DNA from: Deltaproteobacteria bacterium
GTDB lineage: Bacteria > Bdellovibrionota_F > JAHFAK01
Reading direction: 5' to 3'
NCBI GenBank assembly: GCA_023250585.1
Contig: JAHFAK010000029.1
Location: 1 to 19,914, forward strand
Length of the DNA stretch: 19,914 bases
Shown here: piece by piece, positions 5,410 through 19,760 of the stretch
How the letters are laid out: each line of letters starts with the position of its first letter
Numbering within the stretch: position 1 is the stretch's first letter
Notes under the pieces: generated by a model
Database searches by the model: none
Seen by the model: only the letters and a program-made list of their open reading frames with translations
What the model was told of the DNA's origin: nothing
Program-made: the position numbers and the translations under genes

Positions 5410-8400
5410 GTGAGACGAATCATTCTCGAATCTAAGTTATATTTCATTGGTGTAACATTTGTAAGTTTGGTGAGTATTTCTTCATCTGCTTTTGCTGAAA
5501 ATAAATGTGGTGGGATATTTGGTGGAGAGAAGCAGAAGGGAAAGATCGTTGAAGAAGGGCAGCCAGAAGAAAGAGAAGAAGCAGAACATGCTGATACGCT
5601 CGCTCAAGAAACGCCTCCTGAATCAGTCGTCGAATCTATTTTTGCTACTCATGACAATACTGATGAGTATGCAGTACGAGTACAGGCAGTATTTCGAGAA
5701 CAAGTAGGGAAAGAAGTAAATGAGACTCTGAAATATTATCAACGTCCCTATACAGGTGATTATGGAGGAGAGCAGTTTAGGTTTTTGAAACAGATGCTGT
5801 TGCCGTATATAGGAGTACCTCTCAGAGAAGTACATATCGAACCGAAAGGGAAAGATACCGTTGTCGTTACGACCCCGTATCGGCAGTACACGATTATCAT
5901 TCATGAAGGAATAGCCGTAGATGATATTTATATAGAGCGAAGAGATACAGAGACGACGATTCATATCTCATCATCATATGGAGATTCAGCACACTATGTT
6001 CAGAATCTGATAGCGCTCAAGAATGCATTCAGAGCAGATGAGTGGGTAAATCCGTATTTAGCACATGAAGGCAAGCCTTTTCGATTACGACCCGAGCAGG
6101 TGGAATCAATAGAGTTCGCGCTTTCTCATAGACGCAATGGAAAGCCGAAGAAAGCACCGGTAGCATTAGTGGCCCAGCCAACGGGAATAGGTAAGACGGT
6201 AATCATGGAAGAAGTAGCGGAGCGATTTACCGGAAAGATACTGATCATAGCCGATCAAAATACATTGATAGAACAGATAGCAGAGCGGTTTCGTAAACGA
6301 TTCAGGGATAGAAGCATAGCCTTATTTAATGAAGGAGGATGCGATAATCCTACGGCGGATATAATCATAGGATCGAGACAAACCCTAGGAGGGAGGGGAT
6401 TTTATGAGTATTATAAACGAAATCACTTTCAGTTAATCATGGTAGATGAAGTTCATCATACGGGAGCGAGAGAATATCGAGAGATCATATCGTATTTTAT
6501 GCCAAGCTTGAAGATCTACGATGCGCTCTTGAGAACCCAAGAGTTGATTACGATGATAGAAGATGTCCCCGACACTCTCTATGAAACAATTGTTGAACTT
6601 CATTCCGGTGAGTCAATGAGTGAAGTGTTAGCTCATCATAATCTGACGATGGAACAGTATATCGAGTTTTTAAATAAGCACAGCAGTTTTACAGGGGTTC
6701 AAATAGATCCACAGGGATTAGGAGAAGCAGGGGTAGGCATACGCAGCGCTACGCAGAAACTCTTTGAAATACTTGAAGGGTTTAATATCACGAATGAAGC
6801 AAAAGTATTAATGAAGGGAATAGAGTTTCGTGATGCCGAGGACCGAGTGATAACCCCGCTCGAATTAATTGAGAGATTGAGAGGAAGTAAGCTTGTAGAG
6901 AATCCTAAGTATAGAAAGCTCTTGGGAGATGTCAGTGAGAAGCTCATAGGAATTCCCTTGAGAGAAGAGGATTTCGACTATGCGTTGAATGAACACGTAG
7001 GATTTGAGTTATTGTTAGGAGTGAGTGCGACGCCATGGCATGGAGACTACGATATTGTGAGGAAGATATTTCATGGGAATATATTATATGGGTATTTATA
7101 TGGGAAGAACGGAGACAATGGAGACTTGGAAGTACGGTATGACCATATGGTGAGAAATGCAATACAGATGGGAGATTTAGCACCGGTGTTAGAATATCAT
7201 ATCTTAGATGAAGGAGCGGGAGGGGGGGATATAGGCAAGGTCATAAGTGAAGAAGCGCTGCAATCAATAGCTCAAAGACTGAGCCAAGATGATTTACGCC
7301 AGTATCTGAGCTTAATCAAAGTTATTTTTACGAATAGTATTGATAATGCAGATGCGATTAATGAGTATTTTAATGAGCATTTAGGTCCGTATGGATATGT
7401 AGGAGAAGCATTACATAGTGATGTGCCGAAGGCTAAGAGAAAAGATATATTACGAGATTTAGGAAATCATAGGATCAATTCAGCAACAGCGATCAATATA
7501 TTTAATGAGGGATTGGATTTTCCCGAGATAGCAATGATTGTAATGTTGAAGGCGACATTATCGGCGCGGGTGTATTTACAGGAATTAGGAAGAGCATTGA
7601 GAATAGCGGCAGGAAAAGAGGGAATCATTGTCATTGATTTGGGGGGGAATTATCAGTTGGGAGAACAGCTTTTACAGGTAGTTGATATAGCGAAAGGATT
7701 ATCCCCTCAGATTGAGTTTTATGGGAAGAGGAAAGAACGAAGAGAAAGAGATCATGGAGATAGGCTGATATTAGATACGAAAGTACAAGAGTTATTTACT
7801 GCTGCCGTAGAGAAGAAAAGAATTATCGGTGATTTTATTACATCACTTATTTACGTGAAGGCAAATATCGATGCGTATATTACAGCGCAAGGTTCGAGTA
7901 GGACAACTGAATCACGGGAGATGCGAAGAAGTCCTTCGTATATATATAGTTCAATGTATACTAATTCAATTGGCAGCCTACAAGAAATCGTTGGGTGGTT
8001 GGTGAAACAATCTGAGGGGAAATTAGCAGTAGAGGATTTTAATAAAGAACCGGGGAAGTTTTCTGAACGGTTAACTGAGCTTGGGTTAGTTAAGTTAGTA
8101 TTACCTGTTGAGAATGTGAAGGCAAATATTGATGCGTATATTACAGCACGAGGTTCGAATAGGACAGTTGAATCACAAGCGATGGAAAGAGATCCTTCGT
8201 ATATATATAATTCAATGTATAATAATTATATTGTCAGCCTACAGAAAATCGTTGAGTGGTTGGCGAAACAATCTGAGGGGAAATTAGCAGTAGAGGATTT
8301 TAATAAAGAACCGGAGAAGTTTTCTGAACAGTTAACTGAGCTTGGGTTAGTTAAGTTAGTATTACCTATTGAGAATGTGAAGACAAATATTGATGCGTAT

Positions 8401-8874
8401 ATTACCGGGCGAGGTTCGAATCGGCAAGCTGAAGCACAGGCGATGGGAAGAAGTCCTTCGTATATAAAGAGTACACTGAATCATAATGTAATTGTCAGCC
8501 TACAGAAAATCGTTGAGTGGTTGGCGAAACAATCAGGGGGAGCCTTGACCATAGAAGACTTTAATAAAGAACCGGGGAAGTTTTCTGAACGGTTAACTGA
8601 GCTTGGGTTAGTTAAGTTAGTATTACCTGTTGAGAATGTGAAGGCAAATATTGATGCGTATATTACAGCGCGAGGTTCGAATAGGAGATCTGAATCGCTG
8701 GCGATGGGAAGAAATTCTACATATATATTGACTGCATTTGCTGAGAATTCAATTCTAAGTCTTCAAAAGACAGTACGTTGGTTGGCGAAACAATCAGGAG
8801 GAGCCTTGACCATAGAAGACTTTAACCTTGCTCCAGAGGAATTCAAGAAGAAGCTTAAAGAGTTGGGGTATTGA
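5410..8874 (+). CDS. DEVH-box superfamily 2 helicase with signal peptide and four C-terminal repeats
   Basis: This predicted 1154-residue ATP-dependent nucleic-acid helicase or translocase starts with GTG, with AAAGGGA as ribosome site. Residues 1-29 look like a Sec signal peptide: basic MRR, a hydrophobic core and an SSAFA-E cleavage site. An acidic low-complexity linker follows (about 33-75), then an unrecognised domain. Helicase motifs are motif I QPTGIGKT (256-263), motif II DEVH (346-349), motif III SAT (539-541) and motif VI QELGRALR (724-731), as in ResIII/type I restriction-like helicases. About 190 residues separate motifs II and III, far more than usual, so an extra domain is inserted there. 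From residue 816 four 87-residue repeats follow. Substrate and location are unknown. A helicase with an export signal would act outside the cytoplasm, conceivably in a host, but that is inference. Confidence 0.85.
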   Translation: MRRIILESKLYFIGVTFVSLVSISSSAFAENKCGGIFGGEKQKGKIVEEGQPEEREEAEHADTLAQETPPESVVESIFATHDNTDEYAVRVQAVFREQVGKEVNETLKYYQRPYTGDYGGEQFRFLKQMLLPYIGVPLREVHIEPKGKDTVVVTTPYRQYTIIIHEGIAVDDIYIERRDTETTIHISSSYGDSAHYVQNLIALKNAFRADEWVNPYLAHEGKPFRLRPEQVESIEFALSHRRNGKPKKAPVALVAQPTGIGKTVIMEEVAERFTGKILIIADQNTLIEQIAERFRKRFRDRSIALFNEGGCDNPTADIIIGSRQTLGGRGFYEYYKRNHFQLIMVDEVHHTGAREYREIISYFMPSLKIYDALLRTQELITMIEDVPDTLYETIVELHSGESMSEVLAHHNLTMEQYIEFLNKHSSFTGVQIDPQGLGEAGVGIRSATQKLFEILEGFNITNEAKVLMKGIEFRDAEDRVITPLELIERLRGSKLVENPKYRKLLGDVSEKLIGIPLREEDFDYALNEHVGFELLLGVSATPWHGDYDIVRKIFHGNILYGYLYGKNGDNGDLEVRYDHMVRNAIQMGDLAPVLEYHILDEGAGGGDIGKVISEEALQSIAQRLSQDDLRQYLSLIKVIFTNSIDNADAINEYFNEHLGPYGYVGEALHSDVPKAKRKDILRDLGNHRINSATAINIFNEGLDFPEIAMIVMLKATLSARVYLQELGRALRIAAGKEGIIVIDLGGNYQLGEQLLQVVDIAKGLSPQIEFYGKRKERRERDHGDRLILDTKVQELFTAAVEKKRIIGDFITSLIYVKANIDAYITAQGSSRTTESREMRRSPSYIYSSMYTNSIGSLQEIVGWLVKQSEGKLAVEDFNKEPGKFSERLTELGLVKLVLPVENVKANIDAYITARGSNRTVESQAMERDPSYIYNSMYNNYIVSLQKIVEWLAKQSEGKLAVEDFNKEPEKFSEQLTELGLVKLVLPIENVKTNIDAYITGRGSNRQAEAQAMGRSPSYIKSTLNHNVIVSLQKIVEWLAKQSGGALTIEDFNKEPGKFSERLTELGLVKLVLPVENVKANIDAYITARGSNRRSESLAMGRNSTYILTAFAENSILSLQKTVRWLAKQSGGALTIEDFNLAPEEFKKKLKELGY
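7855..8871 (+). repeat. Four in-frame 261-bp (87-residue) tandem repeats in the helicase gene
   Basis: The repeats start at 7855, 8116, 8377 and 8638, exactly 261 bp apart. The last is truncated to 78 codons before the stop. Each begins VK(A/T)NIDAYIT, continues with G-S-(S/N)-R and an E-A-M-(x)-R...(S/T)YI stretch resembling a helix-turn-helix, then SLQK(I/T)V.WL(A/V)KQS, and ends with a ...FNKEP.KFSE(R/Q)LTELGL stretch. The first halves differ while the second halves are almost identical at DNA level, which points to recent duplication or conversion. Confidence 0.93.
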
Positions 8875-8881
8875 GATGTAT

Positions 8882-8931
8882 CATGTTACCATATTGACAA
8901 ATAAGTAATATTTTGCCAATATAGTAACATG
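8882..8931 (+). promoter_or_regulatory. Operator-like inverted repeat over the AbiEi promoter and start codon
   Basis: CATGTTACCATATTG (8882-8896) and CAATATAGTAACATG (8917-8931) are inverse complements at 14 of 15 positions. The left arm contains a TTGACA -35 box (8894-8899) and the right arm ends in the ATG start codon itself. The -10 box is unclear: TATAGT at 8920 matches well but at 20 bp spacing. No Shine-Dalgarno sequence precedes the ATG. AbiEi-family antitoxins are known to repress their own operon through inverted repeats, so this is a plausible autoregulatory operator. Confidence 0.65.
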
Positions 8932-9501
8932 AATCGTCACAAAATTCTTATCTATTTTAAAAAGCATAAGATCGCTAAAACGTCTGAACTTATATCACTT
9001 TTAGGTAATAAAATGGCAATTATTCGTTTGGCTAATGAAGGAGTTCTCCAGCAAATAGCGAGAGGGTACTATACACTTCCTAAGTTTGATATTTTTTCCG
9101 GATTACTCATCTTAATTGCAAAGTATTATACCCATGGAATTGTATCTGGTCTTATGGCTGCAAAATATTATGATATAACCGATGAAAGCATAGATCGAAT
9201 TGATGTTGATATTGTCTATCCTCATAATATTCGTAATGATTTACTTAAGGTTAAAAGAATTCAACCGAAAAGACTGGTGGGCGTTAAGAAAGTTACTATC
9301 AAAGGATATTCCGTCAAGATATATAATCTTGAAAGGACATTGATTGACGTCTATCTAAAATATGAACGTGGAATTTTTTATAAAGTACTTAAACGAGCCC
9401 AGGCAAAGTATTCCATTAACGTTGATGCGATAAAACGCTATGATGCAGTTTTAAAAACAACTATTTTACACAATATCATGCAGGAATTAGCTGATGCATA
9501 A
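8929..9501 (+). CDS. AbiEi-type antitoxin / transcriptional repressor
   Basis: This 190-residue protein resembles AbiEi family antitoxins. It has an N-terminal winged helix (about 1-50: HKILIYFKKHKIAKTSEL, then the wing ANEGVLQQIARGYYTLP) followed by the basic C-terminal domain typical of the family (...IYNLERTLIDVYLKY...). Members bind operator DNA, repress their operon and counteract an AbiEii nucleotidyltransferase toxin in type IV toxin-antitoxin/phage-defence systems. It starts 54 bp after the helicase gene with its own palindromic promoter. No complete AbiEii gene follows. Only a short overlapping open frame remains before the inverted repeat at 9577, so this looks like an orphan antitoxin or solitary regulator. 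Confidence 0.75.
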   Translation: MNRHKILIYFKKHKIAKTSELISLLGNKMAIIRLANEGVLQQIARGYYTLPKFDIFSGLLILIAKYYTHGIVSGLMAAKYYDITDESIDRIDVDIVYPHNIRNDLLKVKRIQPKRLVGVKKVTIKGYSVKIYNLERTLIDVYLKYERGIFYKVLKRAQAKYSINVDAIKRYDAVLKTTILHNIMQELADA

Positions 9502-9622
9502 ACGTTTTATTGTACGAGCACGAAAGTTTATTAGGGCTCATAATCTCGTTACCTCTTTCCTCTCTCTAACATCTCTTATTTTCCTGTTCAATATATCAGG
9601 TACCCTACACTTAAAGTGCTGA
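9494..9622 (+). pseudogene. Possible truncated AbiEii toxin start (remnant)
   Basis: An ATG inside the AbiEi stop region (GATGCATAA) opens a 42-codon frame starting MHKRFIVRARKFIRAHN and ending in TGA at 9620-9622. The overlap matches the layout expected for a partner toxin gene. The frame runs into the left terminal inverted repeat at 9577, and nothing downstream of the right repeat continues it. No nucleotidyltransferase motif is present. The remnant idea rests on position only, and a random short frame is possible. Confidence 0.3.
9577..9612 (+). repeat. Left terminal inverted repeat flanking the AAA ATPase gene
   Basis: This 36-bp sequence (core CCTGTTCAATATATC then GGTACCCTACAC) matches the reverse complement of 10855-10890 at 33 of 36 positions. 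The inner 30 bp match at 28. Together the two copies bracket a 1.3-kb unit containing one gene. I see no clear target-site duplication at the outer edges. Confidence 0.85.
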
Positions 9623-9650
9623 GGGGGATTAAAAAATAATAAATTGTGCC

Positions 9651-9687
9651 TTTACTTTATTGCTAAAATAGTTTACATTTTAGCAAT
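9651..9687 (+). promoter_or_regulatory. Promoter and perfect 11-bp palindrome abutting the ATPase start
   Basis: TTTACT (9651-9656) and TACATT (9674-9679) form a -35/-10 pair with 17 bp spacing, each matching consensus at four of six bases. A perfect inverted repeat ATTGCTAAAAT (9659-9669) / ATTTTAGCAAT (9677-9687) overlaps it and ends directly at the ATG (9688). There is no ribosome site. The layout suggests a leaderless transcript controlled by a repressor bound to the palindrome. Confidence 0.6.
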
Positions 9688-10851
9688 ATGATTAAGCGAT
9701 CTATTCAATTTAATACCAAGAGGTCTTTTTTTCTCTTTGGTCCACGACAAACAGGAAAAAGTACTCTCATTAATTTACTCTTAGAAAAGAATACATTAGT
9801 CATCAATCTGTTACATCGAGAAGAATTTTTAAAGTTTGAAAAGGAGCCAACATTATTTCGGCAGGAAGTACTAACACACCAAAAGAAATATCCGAACTCT
9901 TGGGTATTTGTTGATGAAATTCAAAAAATACCTACCTTACTCGATGAAATACATGATCTTATTGAATCAAAAAAAATAAAATTTATTCTTACCGGTTCAA
10001 GTGCACGAAAACTAAAGAGAGGAGGAGCGAATTTACTTGCAGGAAGAGCGACAACCTATCATTTATTCCCATTAACCTTTCAAGAGCTTGGCGATGAGTT
10101 TGATCTTGAAAAAGCATTACGCTATGGAACATTACCAGCGTCCTATCTTTCAGCAAACGATGATGCCTATGATTTTTTATCATCATATGTTGTGACGTAT
10201 TTAAAAGAGGAAATTCAGGAAGAGGGGATTGTGCGGAATTTAGGAAACTTTGCACGATTCTTAGATGTGGTTGCAGCCAATGATGGAGAACTCGTCAATT
10301 TTTCGAATATTAGCCGAGAATGTAGCATTCCAATAAAGACAGTACAGTCATATTACGATATACTTGAGGATACTCTTATCGCTCATCGACTGCTTCCTTG
10401 GACAAGAAGTGTGAGAAAACGTTTAGTTGTCCATCCGAAATACTATTTATTCGATACGGGTGTTACTAATCAATTAAGTGGTACATTGTATCAGAAGTTG
10501 AATTCAGTGGTTCGTGGGAGAAGATTTGAGCAGTTTATCATCTTAGAGACACTGCGAACTATTACCTATGCAAAGAGCCCGCTTAAGCTGTTTTTTTGGC
10601 GGAATAATACAGGTACAGAAGTTGATTTTATCTTGGTAAGAGGCGAAGAACCTATTGCAGGCATTGAAATTAAATCAACACCATATCCCCACTTAGTTGA
10701 TTGTACGGGGTTAAAAGCATTGGCCGAAGATTATCCAAGGATACGAAAAATTATTGTAGCTAATGTTACAAGACCATATCATCTCGATGATGTTGAAGTT
10801 ATCCCATGGAAAACCTATATGAAAACATTGGAAGAAGATTTTCTCCATTAA
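9688..10851 (+). CDS. AAA+ ATPase of the AAA_14/DUF4143 family
   Basis: This 387-residue protein has Walker A GPRQTGKST (18-26), Walker B WVFVDE (D76, E77) and the sensor-like LTGSSARK (101-108) typical of AAA_14. A middle winged-helix-like segment follows (about 200-240, ISRECSIPIKTVQSYYDIL). The C-terminal DUF4143 region resembles a PD-(D/E)xK nuclease fold, with candidate residues E281, D313 and E327-x-K329 (GIEIKS). The biochemical role of the family is not established; members are common in accessory regions of bacteria and archaea. Here the gene is the only one between two 36-bp inverted repeats, with the stop codon three bases before the right repeat, so it appears to be carried as a discrete unit. 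No transposase lies in the window. Confidence 0.88.
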   Translation: MIKRSIQFNTKRSFFLFGPRQTGKSTLINLLLEKNTLVINLLHREEFLKFEKEPTLFRQEVLTHQKKYPNSWVFVDEIQKIPTLLDEIHDLIESKKIKFILTGSSARKLKRGGANLLAGRATTYHLFPLTFQELGDEFDLEKALRYGTLPASYLSANDDAYDFLSSYVVTYLKEEIQEEGIVRNLGNFARFLDVVAANDGELVNFSNISRECSIPIKTVQSYYDILEDTLIAHRLLPWTRSVRKRLVVHPKYYLFDTGVTNQLSGTLYQKLNSVVRGRRFEQFIILETLRTITYAKSPLKLFFWRNNTGTEVDFILVRGEEPIAGIEIKSTPYPHLVDCTGLKALAEDYPRIRKIIVANVTRPYHLDDVEVIPWKTYMKTLEEDFLH

Positions 10852-11130: not shown

Positions 11131-11409
11131 ATGAAAAAGTCGATCTTAGTCAGTGCTGCAATCGGAGGATTAATTTTCGCAGCTGCTTGTACAAACAACA
11201 AAAGCGCTTCAAAATCAATGCAAGAAGGTGATGCTCAAGCAATGAAAGGTGAATGCCATGGCATTAATGAATGTAAGGGTACGGGAGCATGTGGAGGAGC
11301 TGATACTTCTTGTGCTGGTACCAACACATGTAAGGGCAAAGGCTGGGTTGCAATGACTGAATCTGAATGCAAAGAAAAAGGTGGAACTTTTAAGGAACAT
11401 TCAAAGTAA
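11131..11409 (+). CDS. Bufferin-type (BufA2-like) Cys-rich metallophore precursor
   Basis: This small exported precursor (92 residues) resembles BufA2-type bufferins, ribosomally made peptides that bind copper in the periplasm after cysteine modification. Residues 1-20 form a signal peptide. AAAC (C20) could serve as a weak lipobox, but ordinary cleavage is also possible. The mature part has six cysteines (C42, C48, C54, C61, C67, C80) in family-like contexts: GECHGINECKGTGACGG, SCAGTNTCKGKGWV and ESECKEKGGTF. The DUF692 enzyme gene starts seven bases after its stop and a DUF2063 gene follows that, which is the diagnostic bufABC order. Copper as the metal is inferred from characterised bufferins. 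Confidence 0.82.
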   Translation: MKKSILVSAAIGGLIFAAACTNNKSASKSMQEGDAQAMKGECHGINECKGTGACGGADTSCAGTNTCKGKGWVAMTESECKEKGGTFKEHSK

Positions 11410-11416
11410 TTAATCT

Positions 11417-12235
11417 ATGTCAGATTGTTTTGTGGGGGTAGGACTTCGCACTGTTCATTACCCCCATATCTCCTCAAAGCCGAAAATTCGTATTAAATGG
11501 TTTGAAGCTGTTTCAGAAAATTATATGGACACGAAAGGTCGGCCTTTCGAAGTTTTAACATCACTTCGTCGTGACTTTCCGGTAGCTCTTCATGGTGTTT
11601 CAATGTCCATCGGTTCAGCCTCAGGTGTAAGCCAATCGTATTTAGCAAAGTTAAAAGAGCTTATTAATCATATTGATCCTTTTATAGTTTCCGATCATCT
11701 CTGTTGGGCTCATTTTGGGAATGTTTCCTACAATGATTTATTACCTCTGCCTTTAACTGATGAGACTCTTTCTCTTGTTGTGAATCATATAGACTTTGTC
11801 CAATCATATTTAGGGCGGCACTTGCTTTTTGAAAATGTTTCCTCCTATCTCACCTTTAAACATTCGACGTATACTGAGTGGGATTTTTTAAAAGAAGTCG
11901 TACGACGTTCTGGATGTAAACTTTTACTCGATATTAACAACATATATGTCAATGCTTCTAATCATCGTTTTGATGGATGTGAATTTATTGATGCAATACC
12001 AAATGACTATATAGGCCAAGTTCACATGGCTGGTTTTACTGACATGGGAACCTATTATTTTGATACGCATTCAAAAGAAGTGAGCGATCCGGTATGGAAT
12101 ATGTATCATCGATTAATACAGCGCCATCCAACAGTCCCGGTGCTGCTTGAATGGGATGAAGATATTCCATCGTTTGAGAAGCTTGAAAATGAGGCTCTAA
12201 AAGCCGCAACTATTTGGAGTTCGTATCATGGATAA
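11417..12235 (+). CDS. DUF692 multinuclear non-heme iron enzyme (BufB-like)
   Basis: This 272-residue TIM-barrel enzyme belongs to the DUF692/MbnB/TglH/BufB family, which uses a two- or three-iron centre to oxidise peptide cysteines. Family signatures appear in order: GVGLR (7-11), WFEAVSENYM (28-37), LHG (H59), VSDHLCW (D93, H94), LLFENV (E139, N140), LLLDINN (D172, N174, N175), VHMAGF (H203), DTHS (D216, H218) and LLEWDED (E245, D247). These correspond to metal-binding and active-site positions known in MbnB. It overlaps the next gene by eight bases, so BufB and BufC are translationally coupled. It probably acts in the cytoplasm on the precursor encoded just upstream, before export. Confidence 0.93.
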   Translation: MSDCFVGVGLRTVHYPHISSKPKIRIKWFEAVSENYMDTKGRPFEVLTSLRRDFPVALHGVSMSIGSASGVSQSYLAKLKELINHIDPFIVSDHLCWAHFGNVSYNDLLPLPLTDETLSLVVNHIDFVQSYLGRHLLFENVSSYLTFKHSTYTEWDFLKEVVRRSGCKLLLDINNIYVNASNHRFDGCEFIDAIPNDYIGQVHMAGFTDMGTYYFDTHSKEVSDPVWNMYHRLIQRHPTVPVLLEWDEDIPSFEKLENEALKAATIWSSYHG

Positions 12236-13010
12236 TCTTTCACTCAAAGAAATACAGGAAGCGTTTTCTCACATGATTTATCAGAAGGATCAGGAGAAAA
12301 AATTTATAGCAAGTATAGAGCCTGGCGGGACATTATCTCGAGAAGAAGCAATAGGCGTCTATCAACGCGCATATAAAGCACGATTTACTGAAGCTCTTGG
12401 TGAAACATTTGAGAGCGTGTGGTGGGTTGTTGGAGACCCACAATTTTTTGAACTAGCCGAGGGGTATATTTATAGCCATGCTTCTCATGTTTATAATTTA
12501 TCAAGTTATGGAGCAGAATTCCCACAATTTCTCGAGAAAAATAAACTCACCCAGACGTATCCATTTCTTTCTGACCTCGCAACTTTTGAATGGAGCTTTA
12601 AAGAATTATTTCATACAGAAGATACGCAGGGAATAGACGCTGAAGGCCTCGCACAGATGGCAGAAGATGGTTCTCTTATATTTCGTTTCAAAAAAGCTTT
12701 TCATCTTTTTTCATCCCCTTATGATGTTTTTACTATTTGGGGACAGCGAAAGAACAAAAATAAAGAACATGCCCATATTAATTGGAAAGAAAAAACGTCC
12801 CTCATGATATATAAGTATCAAAAAGAAATGCATATAAAAAAACTGAAAGAGTATGAGTATGCATTATTGACCTTGCTTTACTTGGGCACTCCCCTTGCAG
12901 GAGCTTTACAAAGAGTATCTCAAGAATTTCATTCACTTTCCCCTCAAAACATTTCCGATTTTTTTGCTTTTTTATTTCATGCCCGAGTCATTGAAAGTAT
13001 TGATAAATAG
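12228..13010 (+). CDS. DUF2063 partner protein (BufC/HvfC-like)
   Basis: This 260-residue protein matches the HvfC/BufC family. The N-terminal domain (about 5-130) carries the typical pattern: LSREEAIGVYQRAYKARFTEAL..., then GDPQFFELAEGYIYSHAS, NLSSYGAEFPQFL and LATFEWSFKELF. The C-terminal part is less conserved and is thought in the family to be the peptide-recognition half. BufC-type partners deliver the precursor to the DUF692 enzyme. The start overlaps the bufB-like stop by eight bases. The gene closes the operon and a strong palindrome follows. Confidence 0.88.
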   Translation: MDNLSLKEIQEAFSHMIYQKDQEKKFIASIEPGGTLSREEAIGVYQRAYKARFTEALGETFESVWWVVGDPQFFELAEGYIYSHASHVYNLSSYGAEFPQFLEKNKLTQTYPFLSDLATFEWSFKELFHTEDTQGIDAEGLAQMAEDGSLIFRFKKAFHLFSSPYDVFTIWGQRKNKNKEHAHINWKEKTSLMIYKYQKEMHIKKLKEYEYALLTLLYLGTPLAGALQRVSQEFHSLSPQNISDFFAFLFHARVIESIDK

Positions 13011-13142: not shown

Positions 13143-15977
13143 ATGAAATATAGTATCAGTGCACTTGTATTTCTTTTTACTTTTATAGGAGCTTCTATGG
13201 CGCAAGAGAAAATGAATAAGATTTTTCCTTATCAATACAAAGTTAAAGATTTACCCAATGGATTACGGGTTGTCGTTGTTCCCACGAGTTATCCAAAGCT
13301 TTCACTTCAGATCAATGTACGGGTCGGCTCACGCAATGAAGTAGAACCGGGTAAATCAGGATTTGCACATTTTTTTGAACACATGATGTTTCGCGGAACA
13401 GAAAAATACCCAAGTGAAAAATATCAGGAAATACTCAAAAATATTGGTGCTGATCAAAATGCCTATACCACTGATGATTTTACCAATTACTATATCAACT
13501 GCTCCACAGAAGATTTAGATACCGTTCTTGAGCTTGAAGCTGATCGATTTATGCATCTCAAATATTCTTTGGAAGATTTTAAAACAGAATCACGAGCAGT
13601 ATTAGGAGAGTATAATAAGAATTCTTCAAATCCAATTAATAAGCTCATTGAAGTTCAGCGGGATCACGCATTCCAAAAACATACCTATAAACATACAACC
13701 ATGGGCTTTATAAAAGATGTCGAAGATATGCCGAATCAGTATGAGTATAGTCAGAAATTTTTTGATCGATTTTATCGACCTGAGTATACCAGTATTATTA
13801 TTGCTGGAAATGTAGAGCCAGCAAAAGTTTTTAGCTTAGTTCAAAAACATTTTGGTGTATGGAAAAAAGGAAAATATACTGCAGTAATACCAACAGAACC
13901 TGTGCATAATGGCCCTGTATACGAGCATATTTCGTGGGACGCGCCCACATTACCTCTTATGACCGTTGCTTTTCATGGCCCTGCATATTCGGATACTGAA
14001 AAGAATATGGTTTCATTTGATGTCATTGCAGGCCTTTTCTTTTCTGAGAGTTCTCCGCTTTATCAAAAGCTGGTTATTAAAGAGCAAGTCGTAGATGATT
14101 TCTTTTACAGCTTTCCTAATCAAAAGGATCCATATCTTGTAACGGTCTTTGCGCGAATAAAAGACATAAAAGATGTATGGTATGTTCGTGATGAAATTAT
14201 CAAAACATTTGCAAAGCTCCGATTTGAAACGATTCCGCAAAGCTTAGTGAGTCGTGTGGCACATAATTTGAAATTTTCATTTCTACGCAATCTCGATAAC
14301 GTAACAACCGTAGCCGAATCACTCATAGAATCTCTTGCATTAACTAAAAATGCAGAAGCAATTAATCGAGTGCATGCATTGTATAATCGCGTGACAAGCG
14401 CCGATTTACAAAGAGTTGCGGATCAATATTTGGTTGATAAGAATCTTGTGGTTGTAACGCTTTCTCATGAGAAACTTCCTGACATTAAAAACAAAACAAA
14501 CTCAATTGATGAGATTGTCGCTCGTGCAAAAAAGATTAAAAAGACCATTGAGTTTGTAGAAAAAAGAACCAAAGAACCGCTCATTGATTTTCGTATTCTT
14601 TTTAATGTCGGTAGCGCACTTGATCCAAAAGGTAAAGAAGGCTTAGCCGAATTGACGGCACTACTTATTTCTGAAAGTAGCAGCCGTTCAATGACGTATC
14701 AAGAAATACAAAAAGCTTTCTTCCCCATGGCTGCTTATTTTAGTAATCAGGTCGATAAAGAAATGACAGTCTTTGAGGGAAAAATTCACACAGAGAATCT
14801 TACTGATTATTACGCCATTATTTCTGATATGCTGCTCGATCCTGCATTTAATGAAGAAGATCTCAGTCGAGTCAAAACACAGCTCATAAATGAAATTACG
14901 ATAAACCTTGCACAGAATAATGATGAGGAGTTAGGTAAAGAAATACTCTATGAATTTATCTATCCTAATCATCCGTATGGTCATTTAAATATGGGGCATG
15001 TGAGTGCATTGGAATCAATAACTCTCAAAGATGTCAAAGATTTTTATAAAAAGTATTATACACGAAATACTGTAGTCTTTGGTATTACGGGAAATTATGA
15101 CGAAGCGCTTAAAGAAAAAATTAATCGCGACTTTGAAAAATTAGAAGAAGGTGAAACACAAAAACTATCTCTTCCAGAACCAAATAGTATCAATGGTTTT
15201 GAGGCAGTTCTTGTTGAAAAAGAAACACGTGCGACCGCAATTTCGTTTGGTTTTCCGATTGATATAAATCGATCGGATAAAGATTTCGTTGCACTTTTGG
15301 TTGCACAATCGTATTTGGGACAGCACCGTTCGAGTAATAGCCATTTGTATCAGAGAATTCGAGAGATTCGTGGTATGAATTACGGTGATTATGCGTATAT
15401 CGAATATTTCCCCCATGGCATGTATTTAATGCATCCTGAGGCAAACTATGGACGACAACAGCAGATTTTCCAAATCTGGATTCGTCCGGTAAAGCCTGAA
15501 AATGCTCATTTTGCTACCCGAATTGCTGTCTATGAATTACGTAAGCTTATTAAGAATGGCATTTCAAAAGAAGATTTTTCGGCGACAAAAAATTTCTTAG
15601 GCAAATATGTCGATATTCTCACGAATACGCCAAGTAAACAATTGGGCTATGATCTTGATAGTCGTTACTATAAAACAGATGAGTTTACTAAAGTAATTAA
15701 AGAAAAGCTTCGTACGCTCAAAGTCGAAGATGTCAACAACGCTATCAAAAAATATTTACAAGCAGACAACATTAAATTTGTCTTCATCACCAAAGATGCT
15801 CAAGATCTCAAAAAACGACTTATCGCAAATACTCCATCGCCGATAATTTACGATGCAACAAAGCCCGTTGAGATTTTAGAAGAAGATAAGATTATTCAAA
15901 ATTATCATTTGGATTTTAAAGAAGATAAAGTGCGGGTTGTTCCAGTTACGAATGTGTTTGGAAAAAAATTGTTTTAA
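13143..15977 (+). CDS. Secreted M16 family zinc metalloprotease, two-domain type
   Basis: This is a predicted periplasmic or extracellular peptidase of the M16 (pitrilysin/processing peptidase) family, 944 residues. The chosen ATG has GGGAG six bases upstream. Residues 1-19 are a signal peptide ending GASMA. The inverted zinc motif is HFFEH (H76, E79, H80) with the third ligand E156 in LGEYN, the spacing expected for M16. The N-terminal half is the active unit. The second half (from about 470, DFRILFNVGSALDPKGKEGLAELTALL) is an M16-like unit without HxxEH, as in other fused M16 enzymes. M16 enzymes degrade or trim peptides inside a closed chamber. Its position between two peptide-modification loci makes a peptide-processing role possible, but general peptide turnover is the default. 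Confidence 0.93.
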   Translation: MKYSISALVFLFTFIGASMAQEKMNKIFPYQYKVKDLPNGLRVVVVPTSYPKLSLQINVRVGSRNEVEPGKSGFAHFFEHMMFRGTEKYPSEKYQEILKNIGADQNAYTTDDFTNYYINCSTEDLDTVLELEADRFMHLKYSLEDFKTESRAVLGEYNKNSSNPINKLIEVQRDHAFQKHTYKHTTMGFIKDVEDMPNQYEYSQKFFDRFYRPEYTSIIIAGNVEPAKVFSLVQKHFGVWKKGKYTAVIPTEPVHNGPVYEHISWDAPTLPLMTVAFHGPAYSDTEKNMVSFDVIAGLFFSESSPLYQKLVIKEQVVDDFFYSFPNQKDPYLVTVFARIKDIKDVWYVRDEIIKTFAKLRFETIPQSLVSRVAHNLKFSFLRNLDNVTTVAESLIESLALTKNAEAINRVHALYNRVTSADLQRVADQYLVDKNLVVVTLSHEKLPDIKNKTNSIDEIVARAKKIKKTIEFVEKRTKEPLIDFRILFNVGSALDPKGKEGLAELTALLISESSSRSMTYQEIQKAFFPMAAYFSNQVDKEMTVFEGKIHTENLTDYYAIISDMLLDPAFNEEDLSRVKTQLINEITINLAQNNDEELGKEILYEFIYPNHPYGHLNMGHVSALESITLKDVKDFYKKYYTRNTVVFGITGNYDEALKEKINRDFEKLEEGETQKLSLPEPNSINGFEAVLVEKETRATAISFGFPIDINRSDKDFVALLVAQSYLGQHRSSNSHLYQRIREIRGMNYGDYAYIEYFPHGMYLMHPEANYGRQQQIFQIWIRPVKPENAHFATRIAVYELRKLIKNGISKEDFSATKNFLGKYVDILTNTPSKQLGYDLDSRYYKTDEFTKVIKEKLRTLKVEDVNNAIKKYLQADNIKFVFITKDAQDLKKRLIANTPSPIIYDATKPVEILEEDKIIQNYHLDFKEDKVRVVPVTNVFGKKLF

Positions 15978-15983
15978 AATCAT

Positions 15984-16031
15984 CACATATGCCTACACCT
16001 CAACGGACGGGAAGTAGAGTCACACCTAATT
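15984..16031 (+). repeat. Direct repeat, left copy, bounding the RiPP-like cassette
   Basis: This 48-bp sequence starting CACATATGCCTACACCTCAA and ending GTCACACCTAATT recurs at 18735-18782 in the same orientation, with 44 of 48 positions identical. It lies six bases after the M16 stop and nine before the end of the ABC gene. It could be an attachment-like boundary or a copy of a dispersed genomic repeat. Confidence 0.85.
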
Positions 16032-16040
16032 TCCATTCAC

Positions 16041-17426
16041 CTAATTTTGTCTAACCTCTATGACCGTCTTATTTTTTGCTAATTCATCGATTTTTTGCGA
16101 AATCTTCAGACAATTACTTGGATCTAAATTTGCATCCCATTCATCTAAAAGTACTATTTGTTCTGATACATTCTGATAAATTTCCTCAAAGCTTTTTATT
16201 AACTGTTGTCCAGTTGAGAGACTTACTCCATCATTCAAAAACTCAAGATTATGATTTGCCGGTAAATAATATACATTCTCTTTAAGTTTTTCTTTCATAA
16301 AAATGAGCAAAGAAGATTTTCCAGATCCATTTACTCCTGTAACCAAGAATCTCCCTTTTGAAAAAACCAAATCAAAAATTATACGTGGATCACCGATTTC
16401 TTGAGCTTTACCAGAAGGATGAACTTTGAAAATTTTGATTTGGTCCCAATATATCCTTTTCAAAATATCTATTTTTTCTGGTTGTATAAGAAATGATATT
16501 AGTGTCTTGAGACGATTTTTATGTATAGGAATTTGTGCAATCAAAGAAAGCATATGGTGAGTAAAATTGAGAATTATAAATAGCCGAGGCAAGATGACAA
16601 CATAGGACGCTAAAAAAGTTGTATCTGATGCATGTGTAATCATCGAATAAGTCACAATTATTAAACAAGGAATGAGTGTTAAGAAAGCAATACCGATTGC
16701 GATTATTTGTTGGAATTTTATTGATCCTATTTGTAGCTCCTTTGCCTTTTCAAACCGTTTCCACATTTTCTCTTGCCACAATCGATTATTATACAAATTT
16801 CCTAATACAATATTATCCCAGAAACCTAACAGAGATTGGCCCAAAAGAATTCGAGCATCTTGAGCCATAAGCGCAAGTCGACCTTGCTGTGCACCTTGCC
16901 ACTTTAGTAACATTGAAACTACAAGTAAGCTAAGACCATATGCTAAAAGAAGTTTCCTATCGACAATAAAAGCAATCGTAAGAATATTAAGAACAACATT
17001 AAGACTTGTTGCCAAGAAATCATAAAAATATAGAGCAGCATCTTCTAAAGATCTTGAGGATTCAGTACTTAAAGCAGAAATGCGTCGTTCCTTTTCATCT
17101 TTCTCACTGCTCAACGAAATCTGATTATAGTGAATTTCAGTAAAGTATTGAATAAATCTACGTAGAGACTCTTGTTGCCATGATTTCACTATAACATATG
17201 CTATACCTCCGGGAAAAAAAGGGAGAATCAATGAAGCAACGTAAAGACCGAAATATAAAAGAAATATTTTTTCTGCCTGAATCGCTCGAATAAGTGCAAC
17301 AAGCCAAATCGAACTCGATGCAACAATAAGTTGCTGAAGGACAAGAAAACTCAAACAATAAATAGCATATTTATTAAAGAAAAGTCCCGAAAGTTTCAGA
17401 TGAGATTGTTTGATACTTGTATTCAC
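16041..17426 (-). CDS. ABC exporter with a minimal nucleotide-binding domain
   Basis: This is a half-size membrane exporter with fused ATPase (461 residues), related in layout to cyclic-peptide/SyrD-type exporters. The N-terminal ~300 residues hold about six hydrophobic segments (near 19-45, 53-80, 132-156, 158-175, 240-262, 268-290). The ATPase domain has Walker A GVNGSGKSS (364-372), an atypical signature LSTGQ (403-407), Walker B IVLLDE (D428, E429) and D-loop NLD (433-435). Only 33 residues separate the Walker lysine from the signature, against roughly 100 normally, and the protein ends at the place of the H-loop with VIEVRQN. The start is GTG, overlapping the HExxH gene by 53 bases, which implies coupled expression. 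It probably exports the product of the small upstream peptide gene. It has no C39 leader peptidase domain. Confidence 0.85.
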   Translation of the reverse strand: MNTSIKQSHLKLSGLFFNKYAIYCLSFLVLQQLIVASSSIWLVALIRAIQAEKIFLLYFGLYVASLILPFFPGGIAYVIVKSWQQESLRRFIQYFTEIHYNQISLSSEKDEKERRISALSTESSRSLEDAALYFYDFLATSLNVVLNILTIAFIVDRKLLLAYGLSLLVVSMLLKWQGAQQGRLALMAQDARILLGQSLLGFWDNIVLGNLYNNRLWQEKMWKRFEKAKELQIGSIKFQQIIAIGIAFLTLIPCLIIVTYSMITHASDTTFLASYVVILPRLFIILNFTHHMLSLIAQIPIHKNRLKTLISFLIQPEKIDILKRIYWDQIKIFKVHPSGKAQEIGDPRIIFDLVFSKGRFLVTGVNGSGKSSLLIFMKEKLKENVYYLPANHNLEFLNDGVSLSTGQQLIKSFEEIYQNVSEQIVLLDEWDANLDPSNCLKISQKIDELAKNKTVIEVRQN

Positions 17427-18279
17427 TGCTTAACCTATACACTTCTTTACGACATTTATTGACTAACTCAAGCGCTCGATTTGTTAATAAATTAAAAACA
17501 TTCTTATCTCGATCCAATGAATCAAAAGTTGCTAAACACTTCTTAAGAATAACCTTCGTTGGAGGATGAGCTTTTGGATGTGGTGGATTTAAATCATGTT
17601 TTTCTCTAAAAAGCAAAATTTCAACAGCTACGAGCAAACTATGAAGGACTTTATCTACAGGCCTCGCTTTTGAAAGAATTGCAGACAAACAATAATTTTC
17701 CTTCTGTATGGTTGCGGTGAGGTCTCGATAATGTTGATAACAATATTCATCTAAAAAAAGTAAATTATGGGTAAGTTCATGAATAAAAAATTCGTCACAA
17801 TCGCTATCTACCCAAGTTTCACGTAGATCTGCCCAAATAGTACCAATAGCACATGAGGTTGAACCTCCACTTGCCACTTTTGAAGGCGAGTAAAATACTG
17901 TATTAATAACAAGTTGAAACAAATCAGCAATTTCAGAATATCTTTTTATAAAGTTTTCATAGGCCTTAAAAACAAAATCGGACTTCCTTTCAAAGAATTC
18001 TCTATTGTTGTTAGATAGCATCGTATCTAATAATTTACATTCAATATCGTTGAGAGCACTATCAACACTAAAAAGCTCTATGAGTTTCTTAATAATCAAA
18101 GGATCTTTTTCAAAGTGTAACCCAATAGAAAAGCTGCGAGGTACTTTGGGCTGAAGATAGTTCAAAAATCTATGGTAACCTAATTTTAACTCATTCCTAT
18201 GAAAAATTTCATTATTATAGGGCTTACTCAACAGTATGAGTGTGTTTAAATTATCTCTGCAACCGTTTAAATGATACAT
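17374..18279 (-). CDS. HExxH-motif putative RiPP-modifying protein (peptide hydroxylase-like)
   Basis: This 301-residue protein has a metal-binding HELTH motif (H167, E168, H171) in DEFFIHELTHNLLFLDE and a downstream ARPVDKVLHSLLVAVEI with a candidate third ligand H213. This arrangement resembles the HEXXH family found in RiPP clusters (TIGR04267), some members of which are 2-oxoglutarate-dependent peptide beta-hydroxylases rather than proteases. No signal peptide is present, so it would act in the cytoplasm. The first ~100 residues are unrecognised and may bind the leader peptide. It lies 47 bp after a 57-codon precursor-like gene and overlaps the ABC exporter gene. The family call comes from motif and context only. 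A true metalloprotease that trims the leader is the main alternative. Confidence 0.7.
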   Translation of the reverse strand: MYHLNGCRDNLNTLILLSKPYNNEIFHRNELKLGYHRFLNYLQPKVPRSFSIGLHFEKDPLIIKKLIELFSVDSALNDIECKLLDTMLSNNNREFFERKSDFVFKAYENFIKRYSEIADLFQLVINTVFYSPSKVASGGSTSCAIGTIWADLRETWVDSDCDEFFIHELTHNLLFLDEYCYQHYRDLTATIQKENYCLSAILSKARPVDKVLHSLLVAVEILLFREKHDLNPPHPKAHPPTKVILKKCLATFDSLDRDKNVFNLLTNRALELVNKCRKEVYRLSSEYKYQTISSETFGTFL

Positions 18280-18293
18280 ATTCTCTTAAAATA

Positions 18294-18317
18294 AAGGGAG
18301 ATGGGATAATCTCCCTT
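18294..18317 (-). terminator. Attenuator-like hairpin between precursor and enzyme genes
   Basis: A perfect 9-bp stem (AAGGGAGAT, six-base loop, ATCTCCCTT) lies in the 47-bp gap. Read on the minus strand it is followed by TATTTTAAG, a short interrupted T-run. This looks like a weak intrinsic terminator giving abundant precursor mRNA and partial read-through into the enzyme and exporter genes, a common arrangement in peptide clusters. Confidence 0.65.
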
Positions 18318-18326
18318 ATTCGCAAG

Positions 18327-18500
18327 TCAGTTATTTTGATCAAATGCAATCATTCGTAATACGGGTGGACTACCGCCATCTTGGGCACAAATGTCGTATT
18401 GATCTCTTACCACTTTAACTACATGGGATACTTGGTCAGTAGCTACACCATCACCTTGCTTATTGATGGATTCCAAAAGTTCTTTGATTAGTTGTTCCAT
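18327..18500 (-). CDS. 57-residue RiPP precursor-like peptide
   Basis: A small gene with a strong ribosome site (AGGAGA, seven bases before the ATG at 18500). The frame is open further upstream, but only this ATG has the site. The N-terminal part (about 1-36) is charged, helix-prone and leader-like, beginning MEQLIKELLESINKQ. After C38 comes AQDGG and then SPPVLRMIAFDQNN, a compositionally different, proline- and Asx-containing tail that could be the core. GG at 42-43 resembles a double-glycine cleavage site and would leave a 14-residue core, though no C39 peptidase is encoded nearby. I know no homologue. The call rests on size, leader/core layout, its own sigma-54 promoter, and adjacency to an HExxH enzyme and exporter. 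Confidence 0.7.
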   Translation of the reverse strand: MEQLIKELLESINKQGDGVATDQVSHVVKVVRDQYDICAQDGGSPPVLRMIAFDQNN

Positions 18501-18560
18501 GTTTTTCTCCTTTCTCGAAACGGTTAATCTCAATTGCACAACAGCCTCAAGAAAAGAGTA

Positions 18561-18578
18561 ATGCAAGCTTCGTGCCAA
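18561..18578 (-). promoter_or_regulatory. Sigma-54 (RpoN) promoter of the RiPP-like cassette
   Basis: On the minus strand the site reads TTGGCACG-AAGC-TTGCAT, essentially the sigma-54 consensus TTGGCACG-N4-TTGC(A/T), with the invariant GG and GC exactly 12 bp apart. Transcription would start near 18551, giving a leader of about 50 bases before the precursor ATG. Such promoters are silent without an ATP-dependent activator, so expression is expected to be strictly inducible. Confidence 0.82.
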
Positions 18579-18649
18579 GTTATATTTCGTTGATTTTATT
18601 CAGGAGTAAAGGATCTCAGCATATAGTACTGTATTTATCTTAAAACATT

Positions 18650-18696
18650 TTGTATCTTTTTCAATACAATGGTTCGAAAAATATACGAATGTATAT
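18650..18696 (-). promoter_or_regulatory. Candidate upstream activator sites (two palindromes)
   Basis: Two inverted repeats lie upstream of the sigma-54 site: TTGTAT (18650-18655) with ATACAA (18664-18669), and ATATAC-GAAT-GTATAT (18681-18696). Their centres are about 97 and 125 bp from the GC element, where enhancer-binding proteins usually dock. The sequence is AT-rich, so chance palindromes are possible. Confidence 0.4.
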
Positions 18697-18734
18697 TAAA
18701 ACAAAACAAAAAGAGAGAGCCGACATATGAATTG

Positions 18735-18782
18735 CACATATGCCTACACCTCAACGGACCGACAGTAGCGTCACACCTAATT
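18735..18782 (+). repeat. Direct repeat, right copy, bounding the RiPP-like cassette
   Basis: This copy matches 15984-16031 at 44 of 48 positions in the same orientation. The four differences cluster in the middle (positions 26, 28, 29 and 35 of the repeat), leaving the first 25 and last 13 bases identical. All three minus-strand genes and the sigma-54 promoter lie between the copies. Confidence 0.85.
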
Positions 18783-18809
18783 CTCACCTAAAAAGGGTTC
18801 TCAATCGCA

Positions 18810-18838
18810 TTGCAAATAACCGAAATAGACAGTATACT
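18810..18838 (+). promoter_or_regulatory. Promoter of the DUF6922/nucleotidyltransferase pair, probably leaderless
   Basis: TTGCAA (18810-18815) and TATACT (18833-18838) are separated by exactly 17 bp. Expected transcription start falls at about 18845, one or two bases before the ATG at 18847, and there is no ribosome site. The mRNA would thus be leaderless. Confidence 0.6.
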
Positions 18839-18846
18839 ATGTTTAT

Positions 18847-19140
18847 ATGAAATTAGGAAAAACGAAAAAAAATCTTATTCCTCGTTTACCAAAAAGCTTT
18901 GCTGGATATTTTTGGGATTGTGATCTTAAATCATTGGATCTTAAGACATACCATCGTTTTATCATAGAACGACTCCTCGAATTTGGAGGGCTTGATGCAC
19001 TGGTATGGATACTAAAAAATATTTCACAAAAAGATGTAACGCAGCTTTTAAGATCAAAAAAGACACATGCATTCGATAGAAGAAGTTATCTTTTTTGGAC
19101 GCATGTTACTGCCATGAAGGATGTATGGAAAATTCGATAA
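18847..19140 (+). CDS. DUF6922-like antitoxin
   Basis: This 97-residue protein resembles DUF6922-type proteins: LPKSFAGYFWDCDLKSLDLKTYHRFIIERLLEFGGLDALVWILK, then ...DVTQLLRSKK..., ending near YLFWTHVTAM. These sit upstream of AbiEii/nucleotidyltransferase toxins and are presumed to be their antitoxins. The last 16 bases overlap the next gene, consistent with a coupled pair. Antitoxin function is inferred from position and family context, not from motifs. Confidence 0.7.
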   Translation: MKLGKTKKNLIPRLPKSFAGYFWDCDLKSLDLKTYHRFIIERLLEFGGLDALVWILKNISQKDVTQLLRSKKTHAFDRRSYLFWTHVTAMKDVWKIR

Positions 19141-19760
19141 AGTATTCTATCCTTGATAAAGACAGAAAAAATATTTTACCACAGCTCATTCATTTCAAAA
19201 AATCATTTTATCTTGCAGGTGGGACTGCTCTTGCTCTGCAAATAGGTCATCGATATTCTATAGACTTCGACTACTTCACCCATGCTGACTTTGACAATAA
19301 TGAGTTGTTTTCTAAAATAGAGAAACTATTTGTCACCTACGAGATAAAGCAAATTCAAAATGCTCATAATACATTAAGTGTTTTACTTAACCAGAAAATT
19401 AAATTTTCCTTTTTTAAAATATCAGATACAAATGTTTTACCATTAATTGATACACGATATTTTTTTCTCCTTTCGGCTAAAGAAATTGCCGTTATGAAAC
19501 TTGCTGCACTACTTCGAGCAGCGTATCGAGATTACGTTGATTTATATTATCTTTTCCATGAATACTTCTTGCAAGATATCTTTGAGTTAGCAAAGAAAAA
19601 ATACAAGAACTTTGACGAAGGAGTATATCTTAAATGTTTATTATCCTACGATGATGTAACAATGAGCCCAATACGATTTAAGAAAGGCTTTGAAGTTACT
19701 CCACGACAGATTTTTTCTTTTATAAAAAAAACTACTGCAACCTATTTGAAAAGCCTTTGA
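19125..19760 (+). CDS. AbiEii/MNT-like nucleotidyltransferase toxin
   Basis: This 211-residue protein has the nucleotidyltransferase core YLAGGTALALQIGHRYSIDFDYFT, with G32-G33 and the metal-binding D47-x-D49, and a later AYRDYVDLYYLF typical of AbiEii toxins. These proteins transfer nucleotides to cellular targets such as tRNA and block growth until countered. I chose the ATG at 19125, preceded by AAGG four bases upstream. The frame extends to a TTG at 19095, but that would lengthen the overlap with the antitoxin gene. It converges on a broken phosphate acyltransferase gene. Confidence 0.82.
   Translation: MENSIKYSILDKDRKNILPQLIHFKKSFYLAGGTALALQIGHRYSIDFDYFTHADFDNNELFSKIEKLFVTYEIKQIQNAHNTLSVLLNQKIKFSFFKISDTNVLPLIDTRYFFLLSAKEIAVMKLAALLRAAYRDYVDLYYLFHEYFLQDIFELAKKKYKNFDEGVYLKCLLSYDDVTMSPIRFKKGFEVTPRQIFSFIKKTTATYLKSL

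Follow-up and report, generated by a model that had tools for sequence, protein, structure and literature searches.

A probable one-enzyme RiPP cassette with an HExxH enzyme and a compact ABC exporter in a deep, poorly sampled bacterial lineage

Can one modifying enzyme, one short precursor and one exporter make up a whole peptide pathway? Three adjacent genes in the window, by which we mean the entire 19,914-bp stretch of DNA analysed here, raise this question. The window is the whole of contig C80, one of the 164 contigs that make up a 2.24-Mb genome, and comes from a deep and poorly sampled lineage. Our answer, to which we give a probability of roughly three in four, is that the genes form a minimal and probably mobile one-enzyme RiPP cassette, in which the HExxH enzyme oxidises the PVLRMIAFD tail of the precursor and the ABC transporter exports the product. 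The cassette looks like a variant, not described before, of a known type of natural-product pathway; searches of open-licence papers by family name and for HExxH RiPPs found no account of this three-gene arrangement.

Gene layout and the HExxH enzyme

The cassette lies at 16041-18500 on the minus strand and encodes a 57-aa peptide (18327-18500), a 301-aa HExxH protein (17374-18279) and a 461-aa ABC half-exporter read from a GTG start (16041-17426). The ORF positions agree with the initial annotation, which had described a tight same-strand unit: the peptide and enzyme genes are separated by 47 bp (18280-18326), and the exporter start lies inside the enzyme gene, giving a 53-bp overlap (17374-17426). 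The peptide ORF has a strong RBS, its ATG at 18500 being preceded by GAAAGGAG, and its product is MEQLIKELLESINKQGDGVATDQVSHVVKVVRDQYDICAQDGGSPPVLRMIAFDQNN. The further claim that no other RiPP enzyme is visible holds for the operon, and the cassette itself contains no leader peptidase gene, but it does not hold for the window, where 11131-13010 (+) is occupied by an MNIO bufferin operon with a neighbouring M16 peptidase gene.

The bufferin operon is separate from the cassette and about 3 kb away. Its precursor is of the BufA2 type (NF050166, 65.4 bits against 60) and is accompanied by a BufB MNIO maturase (NF050167, 342.5 against 310) and a DUF2063/HvfC-like partner. It is a typical representative of a known family of copper-binding RiPPs, found here in a poorly sampled lineage. 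Elsewhere on the contig, and all on the plus strand, are a GyrB with a CxxC...CxxC zinc-ribbon-like N-terminal extension (85-2592), a 1154-aa helicase-like protein with restriction/defence-type matches (5410-8874), AbiEi-like and AAA_14/DUF4143 genes (8929-10851) and a DUF6922 and AbiEii-like pair (18847-19760). The C-terminus of the helicase-like protein carries four 87-aa tandem repeats, encoded by 261-bp repeats at 7855-8825.

The HExxH protein, put forward at the outset as a modifying enzyme, scored above the curated cut-off of NCBIfam TIGR04267, the aKG-HExxH peptide beta-hydroxylases (57.1 against 40 bits, E 2.2e-15, residues 118-257). Close relatives score 55-70 bits, and the enzyme family is uncommon, being present in 6 of 386 diverse genomes. 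No Pfam family, peptidase families included, was matched at E <= 1, and on this ground a housekeeping zincin metalloprotease was rejected. The proposed active-site residues H167, E168 and H171 and the candidate H213 were invariant in each of the three alignments made; residues conserved across the alignments also include G138, S142, G146, W149, D160, S199 and R206. This pattern suggests that H167 and H171 are metal ligands, with E168 catalytic and H213 probably the third metal ligand, and that R206 is a possible aKG contact.

An AlphaFold2 model of the enzyme had a mean pLDDT of 63 and was better around residues 90-120 and 150-290. The best structural match of this modest-confidence model was the HExxH domain of ChlBH (PDB 8s5f), with a Foldseek probability of 0.99-1.0 and a VIA-align Z of 11.9 over 183 residues at 3.8 A. 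SjiH-Ni (22ob) came second with Z 9.9 and the remainder had Z 7.2 and below; the rows under these two (C3PO, 14-3-3) were read as chance helical matches. An unrelated protease did not head the comparison, the best unrelated match standing at Z 7.2. Searched against the PDB by sequence, the enzyme profile found 8s5f only at E 0.54, thus the likeness to ChlBH is carried by the structural comparison. In ChlBH the HExxH domain comes into play once a fused radical SAM domain has formed a cyclophane, whereas the window enzyme is free-standing in a cassette with no radical SAM partner. By family and fold, the protein is most likely an aKG-HExxH peptide beta-hydroxylase, its activity being predicted.

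The precursor tail and relatives of the cassette

In a maximum-likelihood tree the window enzyme, Moraxellaceae-group relatives and two Bacilli enzymes formed one clade (support 100/99), and the Bacillota and SPbeta-phage enzymes formed a separate one. A tblastn search against plasmids found an enzyme on plasmids of Acinetobacter sp. SAAs474/470 (33% over 91% of the window enzyme). On the SAAs474 plasmid the order is a 71-aa peptide, the HExxH gene and an ABC gene whose product is homologous to the window exporter (28% over 453 aa, E 4e-39). The same three-gene order recurs in A. gerneri, on a 295-kb contig, and in G468, a Moraxellaceae-group genome of the family of A. gerneri, where the cassette sits between genes that we named purC-like and parC-like from reading their sequences. 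In G723 (Bacilli, locus L049) a 72-aa peptide ending YGPLRMFATDTANKS is encoded directly before the HExxH gene, where the contig comes to an end; an MFS gene is found upstream. In more distant relatives, from Bacillota and SPbeta phage, a peptide and an HExxH enzyme go with an MFS exporter, and the peptide frequently carries a motif of the PLRMQIH type. The one genome of the window's class that was searched gave no match, and an enzyme-profile scan of viral contigs found no relative. Short ORFs beside distant TIGR04267 enzymes (L013 2539-2694, L014 7757-7957) are possible further precursors; one of them lies next to a presumably YcaO-like gene.

The conserved unit of the precursor is PVLRMIAFD, residues 46-54. 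Peptides of the window and of the three relatives with all three genes have a common C-terminal motif, [PV][LM]RMIA[FY][DEN], and the tails aligned with that of the window read IPLRMIAYE in Acinetobacter 474, LPLRMIAYN in A. gerneri, APMRMIAYD in G468 and GPLRMFATD in G723. Conservation of the peptide beside its enzyme extends to four further enzymes of the clade nearest the window and, more loosely, to Bacillota. Of the two refuting outcomes named in the initial annotation, a best structural match to an unrelated protease and a peptide not conserved beside the enzyme, neither was observed. The best 7-mer common to the window, Acinetobacter 474, G468 and G723 peptides was LRMIAFD, with a score of 78. 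In this close set of the window and three independent relatives, the score lay above all 2000 shuffles, which averaged 38.3 +/- 3.9 with a maximum of 62. The tail outscores every shuffle and three other genomes have the same order of genes, so the cassette is more than chance. The G468 peptide gene is out of frame at an A8 run and split between two frames (L044 5276-5441), which is either an assembly error or real slippage; with this gene broken, not every copy of the cassette need be active.

Among Bacillota peptides encoded upstream of an HExxH gene, the tail reads PLRMQIH in Exiguobacterium, Priestia, G885 and S. warneri, VVRMALHD in G824, VFVMQIHD in Peribacillus and VLVMQLHD in Cytobacillus; it reads VVQNMQIHD on an S. 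aureus plasmid and RFVMILKE in SPbetaL1. Met is present in every one of these tails. Of these, only PLRMQIH and VVRMALHD fit the profile of the close clade (p 0.005-0.04). Taken one at a time, the other distant peptides (SPbeta, Peribacillus, Cytobacillus) gave no significant match to this profile, and they are tied to the close clade by position and enzyme, not by the motif test. A direct link between the window motif and the distant Gram-positive peptides was rejected, 1900 of 2000 shuffles being equally good when scored from the window peptide. At the Bacillota loci L024, L028, L046 and L048 the pattern used found no motif-type peptide. The precursor itself had no match in Pfam or NCBIfam at E <= 1, in PHROGs at <= 0.01 or among plasmids, and no paralogue in its own genome.

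The initial annotation had placed the modification on the tail after C38 or after the double glycine at 42-43. The tail after GG does contain the conserved stretch 46-54, but neither C38 nor G42-G43 is conserved in relatives, where residues 47-54 are, and both were rejected as the core boundary. Known chemistry offers a guide to what happens in this stretch. The C-terminal Gln of PosA and PflA is beta-hydroxylated by aKG-HExxH relatives (PMC12636437), another relative hydroxylates Pro in PesA, and family members also beta-hydroxylate His, Asp and Phe (PMC13060819). Because characterised relatives beta-hydroxylate C-terminal residues, beta-hydroxylation would be expected by analogy within PVLRMIAFD.

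The closest known systems are larger. The pfl and pos clusters of Pseudomonas (PflC, PosC) resemble the cassette in having a TIGR04267/IPR026337 enzyme that acts at the precursor C-terminus, an -RM- tail motif and no protease, but their leader is of the NHLP type, they contain a Gln run, and they encode an MNIO-nitroreductase, a GNAT and two transporters besides (PMC12636437). The window cassette, by contrast, makes do with a single modifying enzyme; its leader is short and belongs to no known family, and its tail is different. In the pes cluster of the nitrilobacillins, the aKG-HExxH enzyme PesO likewise modifies a residue beside a conserved C-terminal Arg motif, but an MNIO, an asparagine-synthetase-like nitrile synthase and M16 peptidases are also present (PMC13060819).

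The compact exporter, the hairpin and mobility

The exporter has a Walker A motif at residues 364-371, the signature LSTGQ at 403-407 and Walker B/DEW at 424-430. Its transmembrane half is nearest to NF045998, the Mbov_0121-family peptidase-containing ABC transporter of mycoplasmas, which was the best family found at a sub-threshold 48.7 bits against a cut-off of 500. The match begins at profile position 144 and, compared with this family, the window exporter lacks the C39 peptidase domain and about 65 residues of the ATPase. The same stretch, between Walker A and the signature, is absent in comparison with MsbA and SAV1866, whose chain residues 388-466 and 388-458, respectively, align with profile positions 367-379 and 369-374. 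In the ABC fold this stretch would hold the Q-loop together with the greater part of the helical subdomain. The compact ATPase is common to all seven exporters aligned, with Walker A, STGQ and DEW kept. Exporters with this shortened ATPase are that of the window (16041-17426, minus strand) and relatives at loci L018, L023, L044, L076, L077, L078 and L083. In the window exporter alone the terminal H-loop His is replaced by Gln; relatives keep the His.

The exporter is not confined to HExxH partners. On plasmids of Moraxella osloensis and Methylophaga thalassica it is paired with a DUF6875 protein, a short ORF and the DUF6875 gene standing directly before the compact ABC exporter (L077 4141-4992, L078 4114-4988). 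The upstream ORF encodes 52 aa and is annotated in Methylophaga, encodes 40 aa and is unannotated in M. osloensis, and is unrelated to the window peptide. On a Psychrobacter plasmid and in genome G117 the exporter has no recognised partner. Its occurrence with both HExxH and DUF6875 proteins suggests that a single type of exporter works with more than one modifying enzyme; DUF6875 proteins may themselves modify peptides and are a candidate new family. Conversely, one enzyme type appears from gene neighbourhoods to be served by ABC or MFS exporters.

A hairpin is predicted in the gap between the peptide and enzyme genes (18294-18317, minus strand; fold z -2.9) and is probably an attenuator or partial terminator. 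It is the sole terminator-like site found in 15950-18850, although shuffled versions of the region have an average of 1.3 such sites. A stem-loop was predicted at this junction in 10 of 10 operons folded, from unrelated sequences; besides the window, z was -3.7, -6.5, -3.6 and -5.6 in the other four of the first five operons and -5.5, -2.8, -1.3, -2.4 and -2.9 in five further ones. Leaky terminators that keep precursor in excess over enzyme are known in other RiPP operons. The hairpin fits such a leaky terminator, which would hold the precursor above the level of the enzyme.

The cassette sits between two direct copies of a 48-bp repeat, about ATATGCCTACACCCCAACGGACGGGAAGTAGCGTCACACCTATTT, one just past its 3' end (15984-16031, +) and the other past its 5' end (18735-18782, +), which are 92% identical and in the same orientation. 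The genome has about 20 copies, in many cases with CACCTATTT repeats behind them, and some form inverted pairs. Relatives of the cassette are located on plasmids and on an SPbeta-type phage. We infer that the cassette probably spreads as a mobile element; the 48-bp repeats may be only dispersed intergenic elements.

The proposed pathway and its rivals

Taken together, TIGR04267 membership, the ChlBH fold and the conserved peptide beside the enzyme support the one-enzyme RiPP system first proposed, with hydroxylation and export as its predicted steps. The 57-aa precursor would be translated with an N-terminal part, about residues 1-43, acting as leader. The single aKG/Fe(II)-dependent HExxH enzyme would bind it and oxidise at least one residue within P46-V-L-R-M-I-A-F-D54, beta-hydroxylation being the likeliest reaction, whilst the hairpin between the first two genes would hold precursor above enzyme levels. 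The ABC half-exporter, as a homodimer, would then move the product out. Counting against this reading are the modest enzyme model, the non-significant motif link to the most distant peptides, the broken G468 peptide gene, the H-loop Gln of the window exporter and the lack of a leader peptidase gene.

This last point leads to two other roles for the enzyme. It could be the leader peptidase itself, freeing a small unmodified peptide (a signal or a bacteriocin) that the exporter moves out: the cassette has no other protease, the exporter has no C39 domain, and the characterised relative PflC hydrolyses when the leader is absent. With the full-length precursor, however, PflC oxidises rather than hydrolyses (PMC12636437), and both TIGR04267 and the nearest fold, ChlBH, point to aKG chemistry, making a peptidase quite improbable. 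Alternatively, the enzyme might both hydroxylate and cut oxidatively at the A52 alpha-carbon. I51 would then end in a C-terminal amide, the other fragment would be keto-acyl FDQNN, and no protease would be needed; the cassette has none. PosC and PflC break the backbone at the Ala of ARMD (QARMD), and PosC requires just a small residue, Ala or Gly, at the cut (PMC12636437); in each of the five close-clade members, A52 comes after a conserved RM-[IF]. Yet Ile or Leu takes the place of A52 in Bacillota peptides, contradicting a general rule, and R-M and A are ordered differently from ARMD. Such a cut, which we infer throughout, is unlikely.

It is also conceivable that the peptide acts as a small regulator or a toxin and that its gene simply moves along with those of the enzyme and exporter, given the AbiE-type genes on the same contig and the relatives on plasmids with toxin-antitoxin genes. 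The motif, however, is confined to the tail, the peptide gene lies directly upstream of the enzyme gene with a hairpin between them, and peptides of this kind are what the enzyme family works on; we find this reading very hard to credit. Beyond the one-enzyme cassette that we favour lies a more ambitious proposal: a complete one-enzyme pathway combining hydroxylation with a cut at A52 and no protease, a new class of ABC exporter without Q-loop or helical subdomain, and a modular mobile platform that swaps HExxH for DUF6875 and ABC for MFS. We regard this too as unlikely.

Characterised aKG-HExxH enzymes in the literature consulted come from multi-enzyme clusters, and their chemistry is hard to isolate. 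One modifying enzyme with a short precursor would be the simplest test bed for the family's own chemistry. With the cassette and its relatives, that chemistry would reach a deep lineage of bacteria from which few genomes have been sampled, plasmids of Moraxellaceae and a phage of the SPbeta type. The shortened exporter ATPase offers a way to ask how small an ABC engine can be and still work, and the presence of DUF6875 in place of HExxH next to this exporter marks DUF6875 as a candidate new family of peptide-modifying enzymes.
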